Source of the DNA: Pseudomonadota bacterium
GTDB taxonomy: Bacteria > Pseudomonadota > Alphaproteobacteria > UBA828
Assembly: GCA_027624955.1 (NCBI GenBank)
Contig: JAQBTG010000034.1
Span: 1 to 43,453 of the forward strand
Reading direction: 5' to 3'
DNA length: 43,453 bases
Of the stretch, positions 3,245 to 13,035 are shown piece after piece (positions within the stretch are counted from its first letter, which is position 1; the number at the start of each line of letters is the position of its first letter). A program made the position numbers and the translations under genes. The notes beneath the pieces are model-generated. The model saw only the letters and a program-made list of their open reading frames with translations. It had not been told where the DNA came from and did no database searches.

Positions 3245-3665
<421 letters not shown>

Positions 3666-3975
3666 GCTTTATTCTCCGACAAAACAGGCCCTTACCCGCC
3701 GTTACTAAGAAAGTGAGTAATATTGCTTGATATTTCTACATATGGTGGCTCACAGCGCTGGCATAACAATATACAGTAGCAAGCTGAACACCAGCGTCAT
3801 TGCATGCTCCACGCCAAAAAAAGAACATAATAAGAACAATATTCACATTCGGTTATTTGAAGTTCCGTTTTGGGGCGCAGGTAACCGACCGCTCAATAAG
3901 TTCTTTCGCCAATAAAATCCGGTTGCTTTGCATTAATACCTGCTGCCAAAGACTTGATATTTATTTGAAAAGCGT
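3666..3975. other. AT-rich intergenic region between rnpB and the mraZ promoter
   Basis: About 310 nt that are visibly richer in A and T than the surrounding genes. A 62-codon frame at 3727-3915 has no ribosome site or recognisable product and is not called. A loose inverted repeat CGCTGG/CCAGCG spans roughly 3757-3798 with a long loop. I see no tRNA, mobile element or clear terminator. Sequence at the downstream end forms the mraZ control region. Confidence 0.6.
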
Positions 3976-4004
3976 TTGACGCCCAAACTTTCCCACGATA
4001 TACC
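3976..4004 (+). promoter_or_regulatory. Promoter of mraZ and the dcw cluster
   Basis: TTGACG at 3976-3981 and TATACC at 3999-4004 are separated by exactly 17 nt, a good housekeeping-sigma promoter. Transcription would start near 4011, about 90 nt upstream of mraZ. Four MraZ-type repeats at 3981-4015 cover the spacer, the -10 element and the start point. Confidence 0.65.
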
Positions 4005-4015
4005 ATGATGTCCCA
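3981..4015 (-). promoter_or_regulatory. MraZ operator: four TGGGN-type repeats at 10-bp spacing
   Basis: Read on the minus strand, this stretch is TGGGA-N5-TGGTA-N5-TGGGA-N5-TGGGC, four 5-mers exactly 10 bp apart, at 4015-4011, 4005-4001, 3995-3991 and 3985-3981. Characterised MraZ proteins bind TGGGN direct repeats separated by 5-nt spacers upstream of their own gene. Three units match and one (TGGTA) is degenerate. The position across the -10 element suggests autorepression; this is inference. Confidence 0.7.
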
Positions 4016-4101
4016 AATGCTTGGTTGGGCGTCGTAATTACGCCGTCCATGGGTTTTTAGGCAACACGCGTGGGGCACGGTTTTATTTGGGGAGCACGGA
4101 C

Positions 4102-4572
4102 TTGGCTTTATTTACCGGCCATGTCGTCAACAGGGTGGACCGCAAGGGACGGGTTTCCGTTCCTGCGTCGTTCCGCAATGAGCTCGCCAAACTGAGTTTC
4201 CCTGGCATCGTTGTATTTCCCTCTCCAGAGGGCCTGCCCGCCATCGACGGCGCAGGCATAGACTGGCTGGAAAATCTTAGCACCAATTTTGGAAGCGCCA
4301 ATCCTTTCGCTCCAAAAATGCCTAAATCCCGAATGGCATTGTTTGGTCAGGTCGAACGATTGAGTTTCGACCCGGAAGGCCGCGTCATCCTGACGCGCGG
4401 CCTCATGGAGCATGCCGGAATCAGTGACACCGCCGCCTTCATCGGTATGGGCGATACGTTCCAGATCTGGCAACCTCAAGCCGGTGAAACCGTCCTCGGC
4501 GAGGCCATCGCCGGCGCTTCGGCCGAGTTCGAAAGCGTGGCGCAGAACTGCACTCCGGAGGTTGTGAGCTGA
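4102..4572 (+). CDS. mraZ: Transcriptional regulator MraZ
   Basis: A 156-residue DNA-binding protein that controls the division and cell-wall cluster it heads. The first SpoVT/AbrB-like half holds [16 protein letters not shown] near residue 10, and the second half holds [16 protein letters not shown] near residue 90, the paired DxxxR elements of the family. The frame opens further upstream, but I chose the TTG at 4102: it gives the conserved N-terminus [12 protein letters not shown], has GGGGAG 7 nt upstream, and gives a normal family length. The upstream residues would fall across the operator region and look non-coding. Its stop overlaps the rsmH start by one base (TGATG), so the two are translationally coupled. 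Confidence 0.93.
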
Positions 4573-5585
4573 TGGCCCGCGGTTCCTCACGGCGCTCCGG
4601 AATGGGGCCCGTCAGCCCTGAGAGCGGGCACACTCCCGTCATGCTGGCCGAAGTATTGGAGACTCTGGCGCCGCGCGACGGTGCGATCTATGTCGATTCC
4701 ACCCTCGGCGCCGGCGGCTACAGCCGCGGCCTTCTAGAAGCAGCGGCATGTCGGGTCTGCGCGATCGACCGCGACCCCGCCGCGATCGCCAGAGGCGCGG
4801 TACTGGCAGCGCAATACCCAGGACGCCTCACCCTGATTCAGGGCCGTTTCGGTGAGATGCAACAATTATTGGCACCGCACGGCATTCGCGAAGTCGATGG
4901 CATCGCCTTCGATCTCGGCGTTTCGTCCATGCAGCTCGACGATGCGGCGCGCGGATTTTCCTTCCGTTACGACGCCGCTCTCGACATGCGCATGGGCAGC
5001 GGCGGGCCGACCGCGGAACAAGTCATCAATAGCGCCTCGCAGGAGATGCTGGCCGATCTCATTTATGATTATGGCGAGGAGCGCCGCGCCCGGGCCGTTG
5101 CCCGCGCGATTGTGGCGGCGCGCGCCGAGGCGCCGATCACCCGCACTAGCCAACTTGCCGATATCGTTCGCTCTGTTGTGCGCCGCGGCGCCGGCGGTAT
5201 CGACCCGGCCACGCGCACTTTTCAGGCACTCCGGATCTACGTCAATGACGAGCTCGGTGAGCTCGATTTGGGCCTCGCTGCCAGCGAGCAGATGCTCAGC
5301 CCCGGCGGCCGTCTGGCTGTGGTGTCTTTCCATTCACTTGAGGATCGCCGCGTTAAGACATTTCTCAATCAGCGCGCCGGCGCGCTGCCCCGGCCGAGCC
5401 GCCATCTTCCTGAATCCATCGGCGACGCCACAAAAATGCCGCAACCCAGTTTTAACTTGCTGAGCAAACGAGCGCGCAAGCCCACCGATCTTGAGTGCCG
5501 CACCAACCCGCGGGCGCGCTCCGCACGAATGCGCGCAGCGGCACGCACGCCGGCGCCGGCCTGGCCCGAGAAAGCAGCGTTATGA
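4572..5585 (+). CDS. rsmH: 16S rRNA (cytosine(1402)-N(4))-methyltransferase RsmH
   Basis: A 337-residue cytoplasmic enzyme (formerly MraW) that methylates N4 of C1402 in the ribosomal P site, fine-tuning initiation and decoding. The SAM-binding motif is [15 protein letters not shown] near residue 39. Other family blocks are [19 protein letters not shown], the [12 protein letters not shown] segment and [13 protein letters not shown]. The length is a little above the usual 300-320 because of a basic, alanine-rich C-terminal tail ([13 protein letters not shown]). The start ATG overlaps the mraZ stop, and the stop overlaps the ftsL start in an ATGA junction. It is the second gene of the cluster, as in most bacteria. 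Confidence 0.96.
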
Positions 5586-5872
5586 TTCGCCCCGCCCTCA
5601 TTCTTTGGATCGGCTTGCCAGCCATTGTGACGATCGCCCTGCTGCTCGTCAGCTATCAAGTTCAGAGCCTCGAAAACGAATTGGAAACTCTGGAGCGCGC
5701 CGCGATCGCGCAACAGGAGGAAATCCACGTGTTGAATGCGGAGTGGAGTTTTCTGAACCGCCCCGAGCGATTGGCCCGTTTGGCTGGGCGCCATTTGGAA
5801 CTGACGCCGGTTACGCCATCGCAGATGAGTTCCTTCACCCTCGCACCTGCATTCCAAGGTACTGAACAATGA
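5582..5872 (+). CDS. ftsL: Cell division protein FtsL
   Basis: A 96-residue bitopic membrane protein of the divisome. In the family FtsL forms a complex with FtsB and FtsQ that activates FtsW and FtsI. A membrane segment covers about residues 5-24 ([20 protein letters not shown]), followed by a coiled coil (about 27-58) rich in Leu, Glu and Gln and the [15 protein letters not shown] segment conserved in alphaproteobacterial FtsL. The frame extends upstream to 5495, but the ATG at 5582 is chosen: it forms the 4-nt ATGA overlap with rsmH and puts the membrane segment at the N-terminus. The gene ends in another ATGA overlap with ftsI. Confidence 0.9.
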
Positions 5873-7626
5873 GCGAACTTTCCGTCCGCACTTGGCGCGA
5901 TGCCGCCGGTGAAATGCGTGACGCCAGCGGGATCGACAAACTCAGCGCCCAAGATGCGCGCCGGCCGCTCGAAACGGCGCGCACCCGCTTGATAGTTGCC
6001 GGCGCAATCTTCGCGCTTTGTTTTGTCATATTGGGCGCCCGTCTAGTTCAGCTTTCGCTTCTCAACAGCGGGCCCGACGCCACACAGATCGCCCAACATG
6101 ATGGCGCCCTGCTGACGCTTCAGCGCGCCGACATCGTCGACCGCAACGGCGTCCTTCTGGCAACCAATCTGCCCTCGCAATCGCTTTATGTGAACCCGAC
6201 CCAGGTACCCGATGCCGATGAGGCGGCGGATAAAATCATCAGCGTTCTGCCTGAATTGGCGCGCGAAGAGATATTCCGCAAAGCCGGCGCCAAAGGAAAT
6301 TTCGGTTGGATCAAGCGCAATCTCACGCCCGAACAATATTATGCCGTTAACCGTCTTGGCCTGCCTGGCTTCGGCTTCAAGCGCGAGGAACGGCGCGTTT
6401 ATCCGCATGGCTCGTTGTTCGTCCATAGCCTCGGTTTCGCAGGTGTCGACAATAGCGGCCTGGCCGGGTTGGAAGCCGCCCGCGACGCCGATCTGAAGAA
6501 CCTGGCGGCAAGTCATAGTGGCGCCCTAGTCACGTCGCTAGACAGCCGCGTTCAACATATCGTCAATGCCGAATTAGCGGCCGCAATGGCAGAATTTGGT
6601 GCCAAAGGCGGTGCCGGCATTGTGCTTGATGTGCACAGCGGTGAAATCCTGGCGCTCTCGAGCCTGCCCGACTTCAACCCCTATGATCTAAATTCCAGTG
6701 GCCCAAATCAGCGCTTCAACCGCGCGACTCTTGGTGTCTACGAACTGGGCTCGACCTTCAAGGCGTTTACCACCGCCATGGCGCTCGACTATGGCGTAGT
6801 CAATCTCAGTGACCGCTATGACGCCACCAAGCCACTCCGCGTGGCGCGCTTTGTGATCCGCGACGATCACCCGCAAAACCGCTGGCTCGATATTCCGGAA
6901 ATCTTCGTCCATTCGTCGAATATCGGCGCCGCGCAGATGGCCCGAGATGTCGGCGCCGAGCGCCAAAAAGAATTTCTCGGCCGCCTCGGCATGCTCGCGC
7001 CACTGCCGCTTGAGCTGAGCGAAAACGGTAGGCCCTTGTCGCCCCGCCACTGGCGTGAAATCAACACCATGACCATCGGCTACGGCCATGGCATCGCGGT
7101 AACTCCGCTTCATTTGATCAGCGGCTTCGCCACCCTGGTGAACGGCGGCATTACCCGCCCGCCGACCTTGCTCCGGCGCAATGGAGAGGTCAGCGGCACA
7201 CGCGTGGTGACGCGCGAGACCTCCGACGCAATGCGCCTTTTGATGCGGATGGTGGTCGAAGACGGCACCGGCAAGCAGGCTGAAGCCGAAGGGTATCTGG
7301 TGGGCGGCAAGACCGGCACGGCGGAAAAGGCGGTGGCGGGCGGCTACAAGAAAAACGCCCTGATCACCACCTTCGTCGGCGCCTTCCCCATGGATGCGCC
7401 GCGCTACGCGGTCCTGGTGATGCTGGATGAGCCGCACGGCACCAAGGCAACGCATGGCTACGCTGCCGCCGGCTGGAATGCTGCGCCGACGGTCGGCCGA
7501 ATAATTTCACAGATCGCACCAATGTTGGGCGTCATGGCGATCCGGCCGTCGGGCGAAGACGAAGAAGAAACAGAACGTTTGTTGGTGCGGGCCGATGGAA
7601 AGGGCCGCCGATTTGCGTCTTTTTGA
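5869..7626 (+). CDS. ftsI: Septal peptidoglycan transpeptidase FtsI (PBP3)
   Basis: A 585-residue class B penicillin-binding protein that crosslinks peptidoglycan at the septum, working with FtsW. A short cytoplasmic tail is followed by a membrane helix (about 39-63), a PBP dimer/pedestal domain (about 80-230) and a transpeptidase domain (about 240-550). The catalytic motifs are complete: STFK with the nucleophile Ser295, SSN at 349-351 and KTG at 481-483 (GGKTGTAEK). The acidic C-terminal stretch EDEEETERL lies after the catalytic domain. The start overlaps ftsL by 4 nt, and the end overlaps the murE start by 32 nt. Confidence 0.96.
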   Translation: MSELSVRTWRDAAGEMRDASGIDKLSAQDARRPLETARTRLIVAGAIFALCFVILGARLVQLSLLNSGPDATQIAQHDGALLTLQRADIVDRNGVLLATNLPSQSLYVNPTQVPDADEAADKIISVLPELAREEIFRKAGAKGNFGWIKRNLTPEQYYAVNRLGLPGFGFKREERRVYPHGSLFVHSLGFAGVDNSGLAGLEAARDADLKNLAASHSGALVTSLDSRVQHIVNAELAAAMAEFGAKGGAGIVLDVHSGEILALSSLPDFNPYDLNSSGPNQRFNRATLGVYELGSTFKAFTTAMALDYGVVNLSDRYDATKPLRVARFVIRDDHPQNRWLDIPEIFVHSSNIGAAQMARDVGAERQKEFLGRLGMLAPLPLELSENGRPLSPRHWREINTMTIGYGHGIAVTPLHLISGFATLVNGGITRPPTLLRRNGEVSGTRVVTRETSDAMRLLMRMVVEDGTGKQAEAEGYLVGGKTGTAEKAVAGGYKKNALITTFVGAFPMDAPRYAVLVMLDEPHGTKATHGYAAAGWNAAPTVGRIISQIAPMLGVMAIRPSGEDEEETERLLVRADGKGRRFASF

Positions 7627-9094
7627 ACTAACGGGGCAAGGCCGCAGGGCGCATGAGGGCAAGGATGTGGAGATAACAGGCCTGACTTCGGATTCGCGCG
7701 AAGTCCATCCGGGCTTCCTGTTCGCGGCGCTGGACGGCAGCCGCGCCCGCGGCGCCGAATTTATCCCCGAGGCGCTGCGGAACGGCGCCGCCGCCATTTT
7801 GGCGCCGCCCGGAACCGATCTCGGCGACGCGGCGCCACCCGGCGCATGTTTGATTTCGGACGACAATCCACGCCGCCGTTTCGCTGAGATGGCGGCTCGC
7901 TTTTTTGCCCGCCAACCCCGCACGATCACCGCCATCACCGGCACCAACGGCAAAACCTCGACCGCCACTTTCATCCGCGAACTATGGCGTGGCCGCGGAT
8001 ATAAAGCCGCCAGCCTCGGCAGTCTCGGCGTTGAGGGCGACGGCCCGACCACGGCGGCGGCATTGACGACTCCCGATCCGGTAACGCTGCATCACACCCT
8101 GGCGGCCCTCGCCGATGCCGGCGTGGCGCATTGCGCGCTCGAAGCGTCGAGTCACGGTCTCGATCAATACCGCCTGGATGGCGTGCGCCTCACGGCCGCC
8201 GCGTTCCTCAACCTTACGCGTGATCATCTCGATTATCATCGCGACCTGAAAAGCTATTTGGCGGCCAAGGCGCGTCTATTTGACGACGTAATGGCGCCGG
8301 GCAGTCATGCCGTGCTGAACGCTGACTCGCCGCACTACCAGCATATCGCCGATATCTGCCGCACCCGCGGTCACGACATCATACGTTTTGGCGGCATGGC
8401 GGGCGAAATCCGCCTGGTGTCGCGGACTGATGAGAATTTTGGCCAGCGCATCAAGCTGGAACTGCTCGGCAAGACTTACGATTTGTCGATCTCCTTACCT
8501 GGCGCCTTTCAGGTGCAGAACATGATGGCCGCCGCCGGACTGGCCATCGCTACCGGCATGACCGGGGACGAGGTAGCGGCCGGTCTGCCGCTGTTGACCA
8601 CTGTGCGCGGCCGCTTGGAATTGGTTGCCCGGCTGCTGGGCGGCGCGCCGATCTATGTCGATTACGCCCACACACCCGATGCCTTGGAAGCGGCGCTTCT
8701 GGCGCTGCGGCCCAATATCCGCGGACGCCTTATTCTGTTGTTTGGCTGCGGCGGCGACCGCGATACCGGCAAGCGCCCGCAAATGGGCGAAATCGCCGCC
8801 CGGCTGGCGGACCGGGTGTTCGTGAGCGACGACAATCCGCGCCACGAGGACCCGGCGGCGATTCGCCGAGACATCATCGCCACCTGCCCTGACGCCGTCG
8901 AAATTGCCGGACGCGGCGAGGCGATTGCTGCAGCGATTGCCGAGTTGCGTGACAATGACCTGCTGTTAATTGCCGGCAAAGGGCATGAGCAGGGCCAGAG
9001 CACCGCCGGGCGAATGATCCCATTCGATGACGCCGAGGTGGCGCGCCGCGCCGCAATGGCTCAGTCACCCGCGCCCTCGCGGATATCGTCATGA
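7595..9094 (+). CDS. murE: UDP-MurNAc-L-Ala-D-Glu:meso-diaminopimelate ligase MurE
   Basis: A 499-residue cytoplasmic ATP-dependent ligase that adds the third stem residue to the peptidoglycan precursor. The N-terminal substrate domain includes GLTSDSREVHPG near 29. The Mur P-loop GTNGKTS is at 116-122, EASSHGLDQ near 183, and the C-terminal domain holds DNPRHEDP at 413-420. DNPR marks meso-diaminopimelate rather than lysine specificity, consistent with a Gram-negative wall. The ATG at 7595 overlaps ftsI by 32 nt, the longest overlap in the cluster. It gives a normal distance to the first conserved motif, and I see no better start. The gene ends in an ATGA overlap with murF. Confidence 0.95.
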   Translation: MERAADLRLFELTGQGRRAHEGKDVEITGLTSDSREVHPGFLFAALDGSRARGAEFIPEALRNGAAAILAPPGTDLGDAAPPGACLISDDNPRRRFAEMAARFFARQPRTITAITGTNGKTSTATFIRELWRGRGYKAASLGSLGVEGDGPTTAAALTTPDPVTLHHTLAALADAGVAHCALEASSHGLDQYRLDGVRLTAAAFLNLTRDHLDYHRDLKSYLAAKARLFDDVMAPGSHAVLNADSPHYQHIADICRTRGHDIIRFGGMAGEIRLVSRTDENFGQRIKLELLGKTYDLSISLPGAFQVQNMMAAAGLAIATGMTGDEVAAGLPLLTTVRGRLELVARLLGGAPIYVDYAHTPDALEAALLALRPNIRGRLILLFGCGGDRDTGKRPQMGEIAARLADRVFVSDDNPRHEDPAAIRRDIIATCPDAVEIAGRGEAIAAAIAELRDNDLLLIAGKGHEQGQSTAGRMIPFDDAEVARRAAMAQSPAPSRISS

Positions 9095-10548
9095 CGACTG
9101 CGGAAAAAGTGGCGGCGCCCCTGTGGAGCGCAGCGCAAGCCGCCCAGGCCACCGGCGGCGAATTGATTGGCGATTGGCGCGCCGACGGCGTTTCCATCGA
9201 TAGCCGCACCCTCGTGCCGGGCGATTTGTTCGTCGCCCTCAAGGGGCCCAATCATGACGGCCACGACCATGTACGCCAGGCACTCGATGCCCGCGCCGCA
9301 GCGGCGATGGTGGAGCGCGCGGCGGATTTCGCCAACGCCCAAGCGCCGCTGTTGATCGTGCCCGACAGCCTCGAGGGACTGACCGCCCTGGCCAGGGCCG
9401 CGCGCGCGCGGAGTACGGCACGTATTGTCGCCGTCACAGGCAGCGTCGGTAAAACCGGCAGTAAAGACCTAATCAGCCGCGCCCTCGCGGTGGCGGGCAG
9501 CGTGTCTCTCAGCGCCGGCAATCTAAACAATTACATCGGCGCGCCGTTGAGCCTGGCGCGCTTACCGGCGGAAGCCGCGTTCGGCGTTTTCGAGCTCGGC
9601 ATGAACCAGCCGGGGGAAATCGCCCCGCTCTCCCGCCTCGCGCGCCCGCATGTCGTGCTGATCACCAATGTTGAGGCGGTCCATACCGAATTTTTCGATC
9701 ATGTCGATGCCGTGGCAGAGGCCAAGGCGGAAATTTTTGCCGGCCTTGAGCCCGGCGCAGTAGCGGTGCTCAACCGCGATAACAGATATTTTGATTTTCT
9801 CGCGGCTCGGGCACGCGCAGCGGGCGCGGCGCGCATCATCGCCTTCGGCTGCGGCGGCGATTCCGAGGCGCGCTTGCTCGCTTGGACGCCTGACCGCGAA
9901 GGTGGGCAGGTTGAGGCGAAAATCTGCGGCGTGCGCTGTTCCTATCGCCTGGCCTTGAGCGGCGAACATTGGGCACTCAATAGTGTGGCGGCCTTGGCGA
10001 CCTCTGTTGCCGCCGGCGCGCCGCTAATTGAGGCAGCCGCCGCCCTTGTCCTGCATCAGCCGACGGCTGGCCGGGGTGCGCGTCATCGCCTCGCCGTGCC
10101 GGGCGGCGAATATGAACTGATCGATGAATCTTATAACGCCAGCCCGGTCGCCGTTGGCGCGGCCATCCGCAGCTTAAAGAACATCCCGCCCGCTCCAGGC
10201 GCACGCCGGATCGTCGTGCTCGGCGACATGCTCGAACTCGGTGCAAACGCGGTCGAAGCCCATGTCGCTCTGGCGCCGGTGTTGCAAGAAGCTGGCGTCG
10301 ACCTCGTCTTTACCGTTGGCCGGCTCATGTCCCATCTCTATGCCGCCTTGCCCAATAGCATGCAGGCAGGCCAGGCAGAGACCTCATCCGATTTGCTGCC
10401 CGCACTCTGCGCAGCGCCTCGGCCGGGCGATGTGGTGCTCATCAAAGGCTCGCTCGGCGTCAAGATGCGGGCTCTGATCGATGCCTTAAAACATGCCGCG
10501 GAAGCAGCCCCCGCAACGGCGCCCGGCGCGGCGCGGATAGCTGGATAG
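9091..10548 (+). CDS. murF: UDP-MurNAc-tripeptide:D-Ala-D-Ala ligase MurF
   Basis: A 485-residue cytoplasmic ligase that attaches D-Ala-D-Ala, made by Ddl, to UDP-MurNAc-tripeptide and completes the pentapeptide. The N-terminal domain has [19 protein letters not shown] (35-53). The P-loop is [11 protein letters not shown] at 116-126, and the [13 protein letters not shown] segment and the [10 protein letters not shown] motif follow. The C-terminal domain carries DESYNASP and [10 protein letters not shown]. The length is slightly above the usual 450-470. It overlaps murE by 4 nt and is followed after 8 nt by mraY. Confidence 0.95.
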
Positions 10549-10556
10549 GAAAACCG

Positions 10557-11645
10557 ATGCTCTATAATCTCCTGTTCCCGCTTTCCGATTCTGTTGGCAT
10601 CTTCAATGTATTTCAGTATCTGACGTTTCGCGCCGGCGCCGCGATCGTCACCGCGATATTGGTGAGTTTTCTGGTCGGTCCGATGTTGATTCGGACTCTC
10701 CGCGCCCGTCAGGGCGGCGGCCAGCCAATCCGCGAGGACGGACCGGAATCCCATCTCAAGACCAAACAAGGTACGCCCACAATGGGTGGCTTTCTCATTC
10801 TTCTCGGTGTTCTTTCCGGCACTTTGCTCTGGGCCGATCTCACCAATTCCTATGTTTGGGTTATCCTCTTTGTCACCGTCGGCTTCGGTGCGGTCGGTTT
10901 CGTCGATGATTTTATCAAGGTGCGCAACCGCTCAAGCCGGGGGTTCCCGACCAAAATAAAGTTTGTCGTCGAAATCGCTCTCGCCGTGGCGGCCGGCATC
11001 TGGATCACTTCGATCTCTGACGATTCGCTGTCGCACGGCCTGGCGCTCCCTTTTGTGAAGACCGTGCTCGTCGATCTCGGTTGGTTCTTCCTGCCGTTCG
11101 CCGCCTTGGTCATGGTCGGCGCGTCCAATTCGGTAAATCTTACCGACGGGTTAGACGGCTTGGCGATCGTGCCAATCATGATTGCTGCGATCAGCTTTGC
11201 GTTGATCTGCTATGTGGTCGGCAACTCTGTCTTCAGCGGATATCTGCAAGTTCATTATGTTGCCGGAGTCGGCGAGCTAGCGGTGTTTTGCGCCGCGATG
11301 GTCGGCGCCGGGCTCGGATTTCTGTGGTTCAACGCCCCACCCGCCATGGTCTTCATGGGCGATACCGGCTCTCTCTCCTTGGGCGCCGCGCTCGGCGCGG
11401 TGGCGGTCATGACCAAGCATGAATTGGTTCTGGTAATCGTCGGCGGTTTGTTCGTGCTGGAGACCATTTCGGTCATCGTCCAGGTGGCGTCGTTCAAGCT
11501 GACCGGTAACCGAGTGTTTCAAATGGCCCCTCTCCATCACCATTATGAAAAAAAGGGCTACGCCGAATCCACCATCGTCATCCGTTTTTGGATCATCGCC
11601 GTGATCCTGGCGCTCGCCGGCTTGGCGACGCTCAAATTGAGGTGA
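10557..11645 (+). CDS. mraY: Phospho-N-acetylmuramoyl-pentapeptide transferase MraY
   Basis: A 362-residue integral inner-membrane enzyme that transfers phospho-MurNAc-pentapeptide from UDP to undecaprenyl phosphate, making lipid I. About ten membrane helices are evident. Conserved signatures are KQGTPTMGG near residue 72, the acidic VDDFIK motif, [30 protein letters not shown] and the [11 protein letters not shown] segment near the C-terminus. GATAGGA before the ATG serves as the ribosome site and partly overlaps the murF stop. murD follows after 4 nt. Confidence 0.96.
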
Positions 11646-11649
11646 CCGG

Positions 11650-13035
11650 ATGATAGTAGGCACATCGCATTTCGACGGCAGCGTCGCGATTCTCGGTCTC
11701 GCCCGAAGCGGCATGGCGACGGCTCGTGCGCTGATGGCGGGCGGCAACCAGGTCCTCGCCTGGGACGATTCGCCGGAACGCGTGGCCGCGGCAGCGCGGG
11801 CCGGCATCCCGATTCGAAAAGGCCCCGACTTCGATTGGCGCGGCATCGCCGCGCTGGTGCCGAGCCCCGGCATCCCGCTCAACCATCCGGCGATTGTCGC
11901 GGCCCGGGTTGCGGGCGTCGATATTCTCGGCGATGTCGAAATTCTATGGCGCGCCATGGCGGAGCGTCGATTTGTCGGCATCACCGGCACCAACGGCAAA
12001 TCTACCACCACCGCATTGATCGGCCACATCCTTGAGCATGCCCGTCAAACCGCTCAGATAGGCGGCAATCTCGGAACACCGGCGCTGAGCCTGGACGCAC
12101 TATGGGCGGAAGGAACTTACGTGCTGGAAATGTCGTCCTTCCAGCTCGATTTAACTCCCACCATGTCGTTCGACATCGCTGTTCTTCTCAACATCACGCC
12201 GGATCATCTCGACCGCCACGGCAGCATGAACGCGTACATCGCCGCCAAGAATAATATCTTCCGGCCGGGTAGATTGAAAACTGCGGTGGTCGGCATCGAC
12301 GGGCCGGATACGCTTCGCATTTATAAAGAGCTGTGTCTGCGCGATGACCTTAACGTTATACCCGTGGCCACCGGCCGGCGGTTGTTGGACGGGGTCGCGA
12401 CCAATGGTGGCCTGCTGGAGGATCACGGACGCGCAATTTGTGACTTGGAAGCCGCGATAGCTCTGCCCGGCCAGCACAATTGGCAGAATGCCGCCGCCGC
12501 CTATGCCGCCACGCGCGCCCTTGGCGTCGATCCCGAAACTATCGCCCGCGCGATACTCAATTTCCCCGGCCTGGCGCACCGGATGGAACATATTGCCGCC
12601 ATCGACGGCGTCCAGTTCATCAATGACAGCAAAGCGACGAACGGCGAAGCTGCGGCTCGTGCACTGGCCTGCTTCAACCCAATTTACTGGATTGCCGGGG
12701 GGCGCGCCAAATCGGATGGGCTGCGTGCGGCGCAGCCCCATTTTCAGCGCGTCGCGCATGCCTTTTTGATCGGTGAGGCCGAACAAACCCTGGCCGCCGA
12801 ACTCGACGGGCGCGTTGACTATAGTTTGTGCGGAACCCTGGACAATGCGCTCGATGCGGCGGCAGCACAGGCCCGCGTCGACGGCCGGCCAGGTGCGGTT
12901 GTCCTATTTTCGCCGGCCTGTGCGTCGTTCGACCAATACACCGATTTCGAAGCTCGCGGCGAAGCGTTCCGCGAACGCGTCTGTATTTTGGAACAGCGCC
13001 AGTCCGAACAGGCGCTGCGGGTCTGTGCCGGATGA
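11650..13035 (+). CDS. murD: UDP-MurNAc-L-alanine:D-glutamate ligase MurD
   Basis: A 461-residue cytoplasmic ligase that adds D-glutamate to UDP-MurNAc-L-Ala. The N-terminal Rossmann-like domain has ILGLARSGMATARAL (14-28), the central P-loop is GTNGKST at 113-119, and ITPDHLDRHGSM and NDSKATNGEA follow. The C-terminal domain contains LFSPACASFDQYTDFEARGE, the typical MurD ending. It starts 4 nt after mraY and ends in an ATGA overlap with ftsW. Confidence 0.95.
   Translation: MIVGTSHFDGSVAILGLARSGMATARALMAGGNQVLAWDDSPERVAAAARAGIPIRKGPDFDWRGIAALVPSPGIPLNHPAIVAARVAGVDILGDVEILWRAMAERRFVGITGTNGKSTTTALIGHILEHARQTAQIGGNLGTPALSLDALWAEGTYVLEMSSFQLDLTPTMSFDIAVLLNITPDHLDRHGSMNAYIAAKNNIFRPGRLKTAVVGIDGPDTLRIYKELCLRDDLNVIPVATGRRLLDGVATNGGLLEDHGRAICDLEAAIALPGQHNWQNAAAAYAATRALGVDPETIARAILNFPGLAHRMEHIAAIDGVQFINDSKATNGEAAARALACFNPIYWIAGGRAKSDGLRAAQPHFQRVAHAFLIGEAEQTLAAELDGRVDYSLCGTLDNALDAAAAQARVDGRPGAVVLFSPACASFDQYTDFEARGEAFRERVCILEQRQSEQALRVCAG

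Follow-up and report, generated by a model that had tools for sequence, protein, structure and literature searches.

The MraZ operator of E. coli was reportedly described by Eraso et al. in 2014. In the MG1655 genome, TGGG occurs three times on the coding strand in 10-bp steps, at 292, 302 and 312 of the locus sequence used here (L033), with mraZ at 335; a leader of 38 nt (PMC5089854) places the transcription start at 297. An octameric ring structure is attributed to the MraZ protein (PMC7761207). In E. coli and M. genitalium, MraZ acts as a repressor of the cluster to which it belongs (PMC8475190), although such repression is not universal, since MraZ overexpression in M. gallisepticum was accompanied by raised FtsZ (PMC8475190). 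B. cenocepacia MraZ binds a fragment with four repeats of 10-bp period (PMC7761207), located at the mraZ promoter; these repeats carry a GTG motif and lie downstream of the -10 element, over the start site (PMC7761207). In Mollicutes, the region of the mraZ promoter contains direct repeats of the box AAAGTG[T/G] (cited in PMC8475190), and the M. genitalium chromosome has one such site only (PMC8475190). A different kind of control element, the 268-nt UpsM leader with its terminator, is found in R. sphaeroides, where one promoter drives both mraZ and the dcw genes (PMC5089854).

Here we analyse an array of four boxes upstream of mraZ in a 43,453-nucleotide stretch of DNA (contig JAQBTG010000034.1, assembly GCA_027624955.1), referred to as the window. 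The term class is used for the group whose named relatives are Alphaproteobacteria. Like the E. coli operator, the array precedes mraZ at the start of the dcw cluster and consists of direct repeats with a TGGG core in exact 10-bp steps. It differs in that E. coli has boxes of GTGG type on the coding strand, around the start site, whereas those of the class are on the other strand, read ATGGGA, lie over the core promoter and usually number at least four. The window array accordingly does not show the E. coli arrangement of coding-strand TGGG in a GTGG box downstream of the promoter. With the B. cenocepacia site it shares the four repeats, the 10-bp period and the mraZ promoter, but neither the GTG motif nor the place downstream of the -10 element; with the Mollicutes site it shares the direct-repeat layout near the mraZ promoter, but not the box. 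Outside the class, an array 3' of the promoter is evidenced only for E. coli and for B. cenocepacia (PMC7761207). The R. sphaeroides leader belongs to the same gene cluster, but in contrast to UpsM, a scan of window positions 3600-4110 found no terminator. Among the literature matches listed, in a search whose coverage excludes most subscription journals, there was no description of the class arrangement. The array is a site of known type but arranged differently, in a manner common to most of the class sample.

Results

The box array and its surroundings

The + strand at 3982-4015 reads CCCAAACTTTCCCACGATATACCATGATGTCCCA, a layout of CCCA-N6-CCCA-N6-ACCA-N6-CCCA immediately 3' of TTGACG, with four boxes (three CCCA, one ACCA) in exact 10-bp steps (Table 1). 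CCCA corresponds to TGGG on the - strand, which from 4015 to 3981 reads TGGGA-CATCA-TGGTA-TATCG-TGGGA-AAGTT-TGGGC. The letters, coordinates and 10-bp phasing of the original prediction, which had read the site as phased MraZ repeats laid over the mraZ promoter, are exact, and 15/16 box letters agree with CCCA. When 3669-4101 was subjected to 5000 dinucleotide-preserving shuffles, read on both strands, 0/5000 reached 15/16 letters and 0/5000 contained three exact boxes. A chance origin of the array is excluded. No second place with 15/16 box letters was found in the window, and a whole-genome search with the four-box pattern gave one place without mismatch and one other with two mismatches, the reversed control also giving one. 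With the mraZ start at TTG 4102, the array ends 86 bp 5' of the start codon. The locus thereby has what a general MraZ operator would have: three or more direct repeats, each with a TGG(G) core, at 10-bp period upstream of mraZ.

Table 1 Features of the mraZ upstream region and dcw cluster in the window.
Feature	Position	Strand	Basis and remarks
RNase P RNA	3246-3668		Rfam match
-35 element TTGACG	3976-3981	+	Sequence; directly 5' of box 1
Putative MraZ box 1 (TGGG on -, CCCA on +)	3982-3985	-	Sequence; CCA core invariant in 6/6 genus genomes
Putative MraZ box 2 (TGGG on -)	3992-3995	-	Sequence; CCA core invariant in 6/6 genus genomes
-10 element TATACC	3999-4004	+	N17 after TTGACG; letters shared with box 3
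Putative MraZ box 3, degenerate unit (TGGT on -, ACCA on +)	4002-4005	-	ACCA in 4/6, CCCA in 2/6 genus genomes
Putative MraZ box 4 (TGGG on -)	4012-4015	-	Sequence; CCCA in 6/6 genus genomes
mraZ, first dcw gene, likely repressor	4102-4572	+	TTG start; Pfam and NCBIfam matches
dcw genes rsmH, ftsL, FtsI-type transpeptidase, murE, murF, mraY, murD; presumed targets	4572-13035	+	ORFs, NCBIfam

Assignment of the downstream gene to the MraZ family is based on Pfam, position and the class profile described below. The Pfam model PF02381 matched at 29.4 bits, passing its cut-off of 23 through the second domain only. In NCBIfam there were six matches, each to an MraZ model; the best had E 1.9e-35, and none reached the curated cut-off that serves as naming threshold (best 122.1 bits vs 162). 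A PDB sequence search gave no match at E 0.001 and weak matches to solved MraZ chains, among entries that include 9qlg, 9qlr and 9sx6, the best at E 0.02. One mraZ copy was found in the genome. Beyond the RNase P RNA, Rfam yielded only two matches in the window, both far under cut-off.

Conservation within genus and class

An alignment of six genomes of the genus has all four CCA cores invariant. Box 1 reads CCCA in three genomes and TCCA in three, while box 2 is ACCA in one. Invariant positions make up 29/40 of 3982-4021 vs 19/60 of 4042-4101; columns before approximately 3882 are uninformative because one contig ends near there. The degenerate third box had been singled out for comparison with known operators. 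The genus has both ACCA and CCCA at this box (Table 1), and the corresponding letter, G in the TGGG reading, is present in 81% of 418 class boxes. To judge from these alignments, box 3 differs at the letter under least constraint, which is normal variation and not decay.

An inverted repeat, GACGCCCAA (3978-3986) and TTGGGCGTC (4025-4033), frames the array. Its right arm TTGGGCGTC is changed in three of the five genus relatives (L003, L005 and L006), and we do not count it as part of the system. A GGGAC-like word (TGGGGC at 4071-4076 of the window, and present in the five genus relatives) is conspicuous in an mraZ leader that is elsewhere poorly conserved. TGGGAC-like words in the leaders of the window's family could pair with GTCCCA at box 4. 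However, TGGGAC was found in 7/95 class leaders (3.6 expected from shuffles) and TGGGA in 19/95 (15.7 expected); we do not claim leader pairing, as there is no clear class-wide enrichment over shuffles.

For the wider comparison, a profile of 26 MraZ proteins (A1) identified MraZ in 126/144 class genomes, and up to 450 bp upstream was taken for all 126, including G122, which offered only about 100 bp and was kept as a miss. At least three of four exact CCCA boxes at period 10 were found on the coding strand in 93/126 genomes. The same search at periods 8, 9, 11 and 12 gave 0/126, as did coding-strand TGGG at periods 8, 9, 10, 11, 12 and 20, and ACCC and GGGT, the box words reversed, at period 10. 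Relaxing the box to its CCA core (at least three of four, phased) raised the count to 112/126, with 14 mraZ-bearing genomes lacking three phased CCA cores in the stretch taken; phased TGG was seen in 1/126 (G033). The lack of conservation in close relatives that would have told against the original prediction was not observed: the CCA cores are invariant throughout the genus, and phased arrays are present in most of the class.

The phylum search added 22 class genomes, with 650 bp examined for each. CCA arrays were present in 15/22, and the seven misses belong to families f14 (G281, G284, G295) and f24 (G272, G286, G304, G307). A set of named loci, drawn partly from the same genomes, gave CCCA arrays in 61/78 and CCA arrays in 75/78 (misses L083, L119 and L141), two of the 80 loci, L090 and L101, having been dropped with less than 60 bp upstream. 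Loci with arrays include some titled Azospirillum, Magnetospirillum and Microvirga. Additional boxes 5' of the -35 element and 3' of the -10 element are found in many class genomes.

The two families deserve separate description. By eye, five of the seven f24 genomes (G043, G260, G272, G286 and G304; loci L338, L342, L344, L259 and L265) have two or three phased CCA boxes at approximately -286 to -339 from mraZ. Between these distant boxes and mraZ lie a GC-rich inverted repeat and a T run, which recall the UpsM leader of Rhodobacteraceae (PMC5089854); an Rfam search of three long-leader loci gave no match. MraZ might control an UpsM-like leader RNA in f24 too. Further up, in stretches of unequal length, four of the seven (G043, G272, G286 and G307; L259, L265, L342 and L345) carry a coding-strand TGG array of at least three of four boxes at 10-bp period, opposite to the class rule and located about 611 bp upstream of mraZ in G043 (L259). 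As for f14, the MraZ of G154, G281, G284 and G295 (L340, L341, L343 and L347) has, by reading, G at the aspartate 13 that is invariant in A1, and in these genomes 650 bp of upstream sequence showed no array of three on either strand. MraZ with this replacement has perhaps a changed task.

Orientation and box type across the phylum

MraZ was present in 68 genomes of the phylum outside the class, of which 45 were read; the remaining 23 all belong to family f140. At least three of four coding-strand GTGG boxes were found in 30 of the 45 and CCCA arrays in 0. With the shorter core, 34 genomes have a coding-strand TGG array and one has a CCA array. The base preceding TGG is G in 88% of 113 non-class boxes vs A in 79% of the 418 class boxes. 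The class type can thus be described as ATGGGA boxes on the non-coding strand, interleaved with TTGAC and TAT. It had been suggested that the orientation of the window array be compared with known operators; the array is indeed opposite in strand to that of E. coli, and the same is true of most of the class sample. On the genomes compared, orientation is a difference between groups, the class vs the rest of the phylum sampled.

On balance, we favour an early rebuilding of the operator in the class, in which the boxes would have moved onto the promoter and to the other strand, with ATGGGA in place of GTGG, TTGAC lodged between boxes and a -10 element sharing box letters. Repression would then proceed by masking of the core promoter, and class MraZ would read a different base before TGG than the E. 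coli protein does.

A single class genome of the 126 has a TGG array on the coding strand within 450 bp. This is G033 (L346, family f14); the array lies about 201 bp 5' of the MraZ match, and its boxes are of the GTGG type seen outside the class. The G033 protein forms a very long branch of unsure place in the MraZ tree, and we do not claim a foreign origin for it.

Association of the array with mraZ

Twenty-eight class genomes without an MraZ match were searched for rsmH, and 25 had a usable 1200-bp upstream region. The other three were dropped: G135, with the 3' part of rsmH only, and G040 and G155, with no rsmH found. Three phased CCCA or CCA cores were present upstream of rsmH in 1/25 and absent in 24/25. 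Set against the mraZ-bearing genomes, this compares with 93/126 for CCCA (Fisher p 3e-11) and 112/126 for CCA (Fisher p 5e-17), p values to be read with the reservation that related genomes are not independent. The site therefore occurs with mraZ and is lost with mraZ. We also observed a phased CCCA array with TTGAC between about -220 and -100 relative to the rsmH match in G142 (L332), a 0.8-Mb genome with no detectable MraZ; by reading, a short frame behind this array looks like the truncated beginning of mraZ.

Specificity was assessed with a strict class pattern, CCCA-N6-CCCATG-N-TATCCCA with at most one mismatch, which gave 94 matches in 83/144 class genomes. No fewer than 91 of the 94 (80 genomes) lie at most 450 bp upstream of mraZ, and all 91 are on the gene's strand. 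Three matches fall elsewhere, in G054, G080 and G122 (near contig end), the reversed control gave one match, and there was none in the 18 class genomes that have no mraZ. This pattern does not match the site of the window itself, which has diverged too far. In line with MraZ as the binder, the four f14 genomes in which aspartate 13 is replaced also have no array of three. Because the array is conserved, lost with mraZ and nearly private to the mraZ upstream region, it is almost certainly, as a prediction from comparative sequence data, the MraZ operator of the dcw cluster. MraZ very probably grips it to turn the cluster down.

The predicted promoter within the array

A sigma-70 consensus scan of 3600-4110, with TTGACA, a spacer of 16-18 bp and TATAAT as the rule and A2 and T6 of the second hexamer required, returned 0 promoters. 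The window promoter is rejected because its second hexamer, TATACC, does not end in T. It is weak by consensus, and its backing is comparative, since the plain sigma-70 scan finds none.

The comparison made use of an alignment of 116/126 class sites, chosen by likeness to the core CCATGNTATNCCA. Base frequencies inside CCATGNTATNCCA are inflated by this choice, whereas the TTGAC offset is measured outside that core. TTGAC lies 17 or 18 bp 5' of TAT in 79/116 sites, with an offset from the core of -17 in 52 sites and -18 in 27; every other offset occurs once or twice. In many class genomes, TTGAC is held in the spacer between two CCCA boxes. TAT is present at the place matching the window -10 element, in an alignment that is itself anchored on the core, and a TG one base 5' of TAT resembles an extended -10, although the frequency of TG-N-TAT is inflated because the TG falls inside the anchored core. 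The window has CG at the extended -10 place, and TATACC where many relatives have TATCCC. Conservation of TTGAC-N17/18-TAT across the class argues for a promoter despite the failed consensus scan, and transcription would start near box 4. The proposed overlap of array and promoter finds support in the fixed offset of TTGAC in 79/116 sites, even if TATACC is a poor -10 element by consensus.

Discussion

We put the probability at roughly 0.8 that the boxes form an MraZ operator at which MraZ occludes the core promoter and represses its own operon. Each subunit of the MraZ ring in turn would contact the next box with its DNA-reading face, all on the same side of the helix. Bound in this manner, MraZ would cover the stretch from just after the -35 element to the start site, and RNA polymerase could not bind. 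As MraZ accumulates, its own operon would be turned down, so that genes for division and the wall come under negative feedback. The simplest reading is occlusion, because subunits spaced by 10 bp would share one side of the helix and, in this array, cover the core promoter. Self-repression by covering of the core promoter is most likely what the array serves, and we infer that it controls the whole dcw cluster. The original prediction was right in its observation, and its interpretation is largely supported.

An alternative is that MraZ binds the array with a main effect other than occlusion, either activating or acting jointly with another factor. The raised FtsZ on MraZ overexpression in M. 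gallisepticum (PMC8475190) is in keeping with this, as is the activation of mraZ-mraY by NtrX in R. sphaeroides (PMC7240162). However, the array spans from just after the -35 element to approximately the start site, where a bound protein would block polymerase, and the NtrX-like motif GCA-N9-TGC is absent in 3669-4101; we consider this alternative unlikely.

The conservation of TTGAC and TG-N-TAT together with the boxes could also reflect an unusual promoter kept for a sigma factor, MraZ being uninvolved. Against this, rsmH still needs transcription in genomes without mraZ, yet the array is missing in 24 of the 25 such genomes. Boxes are moreover found before the -35 and after the -10 element in many genomes, and a promoter does not require a 10-bp box period. 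Such a promoter is a very improbable explanation.

Still less credence is due to the idea that the G-rich strand forms a G-quadruplex controlling transcription, which draws on biophysical and reporter data for a G4 motif that in S. aureus lies 3' of the mraZ promoter (PMC11796246). One of the window tracts is GG only (TGGTA, the third in + strand order), so that there are not four tracts of at least three G, and the constant unit across the class is TGG repeated every 10 bp exactly, followed by G in the 81% of boxes noted above; a G-quadruplex needs neither an exact period nor mraZ. The S. aureus G-rich stretch is described as a G-quadruplex with no known regulator (PMC11796246), and may be the MraZ operator. 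Binding of the array by another regulator, be it CtrA, for which sites upstream of mraZ are mentioned in S. meliloti (PMC4414408), NtrX or an unknown protein, is just as hard to credit, since the array tracks the presence of mraZ and no NtrX-like, CtrA-like or GANTC motif occurs in 3669-4101.

Returning to repression by MraZ at its own operator, the interest of the class arrangement lies in what it can be set against. MraZ heads the division and wall cluster in very many bacteria, yet the operator is known in detail for few species. Class sites and those of the other phylum members sampled form a natural contrast, differing in strand, place and box, which makes operator direction and box specificity testable and also allows feedback by core-promoter masking to be compared with a block just after the promoter. 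The class consensus should help to locate MraZ sites in cultured class members.
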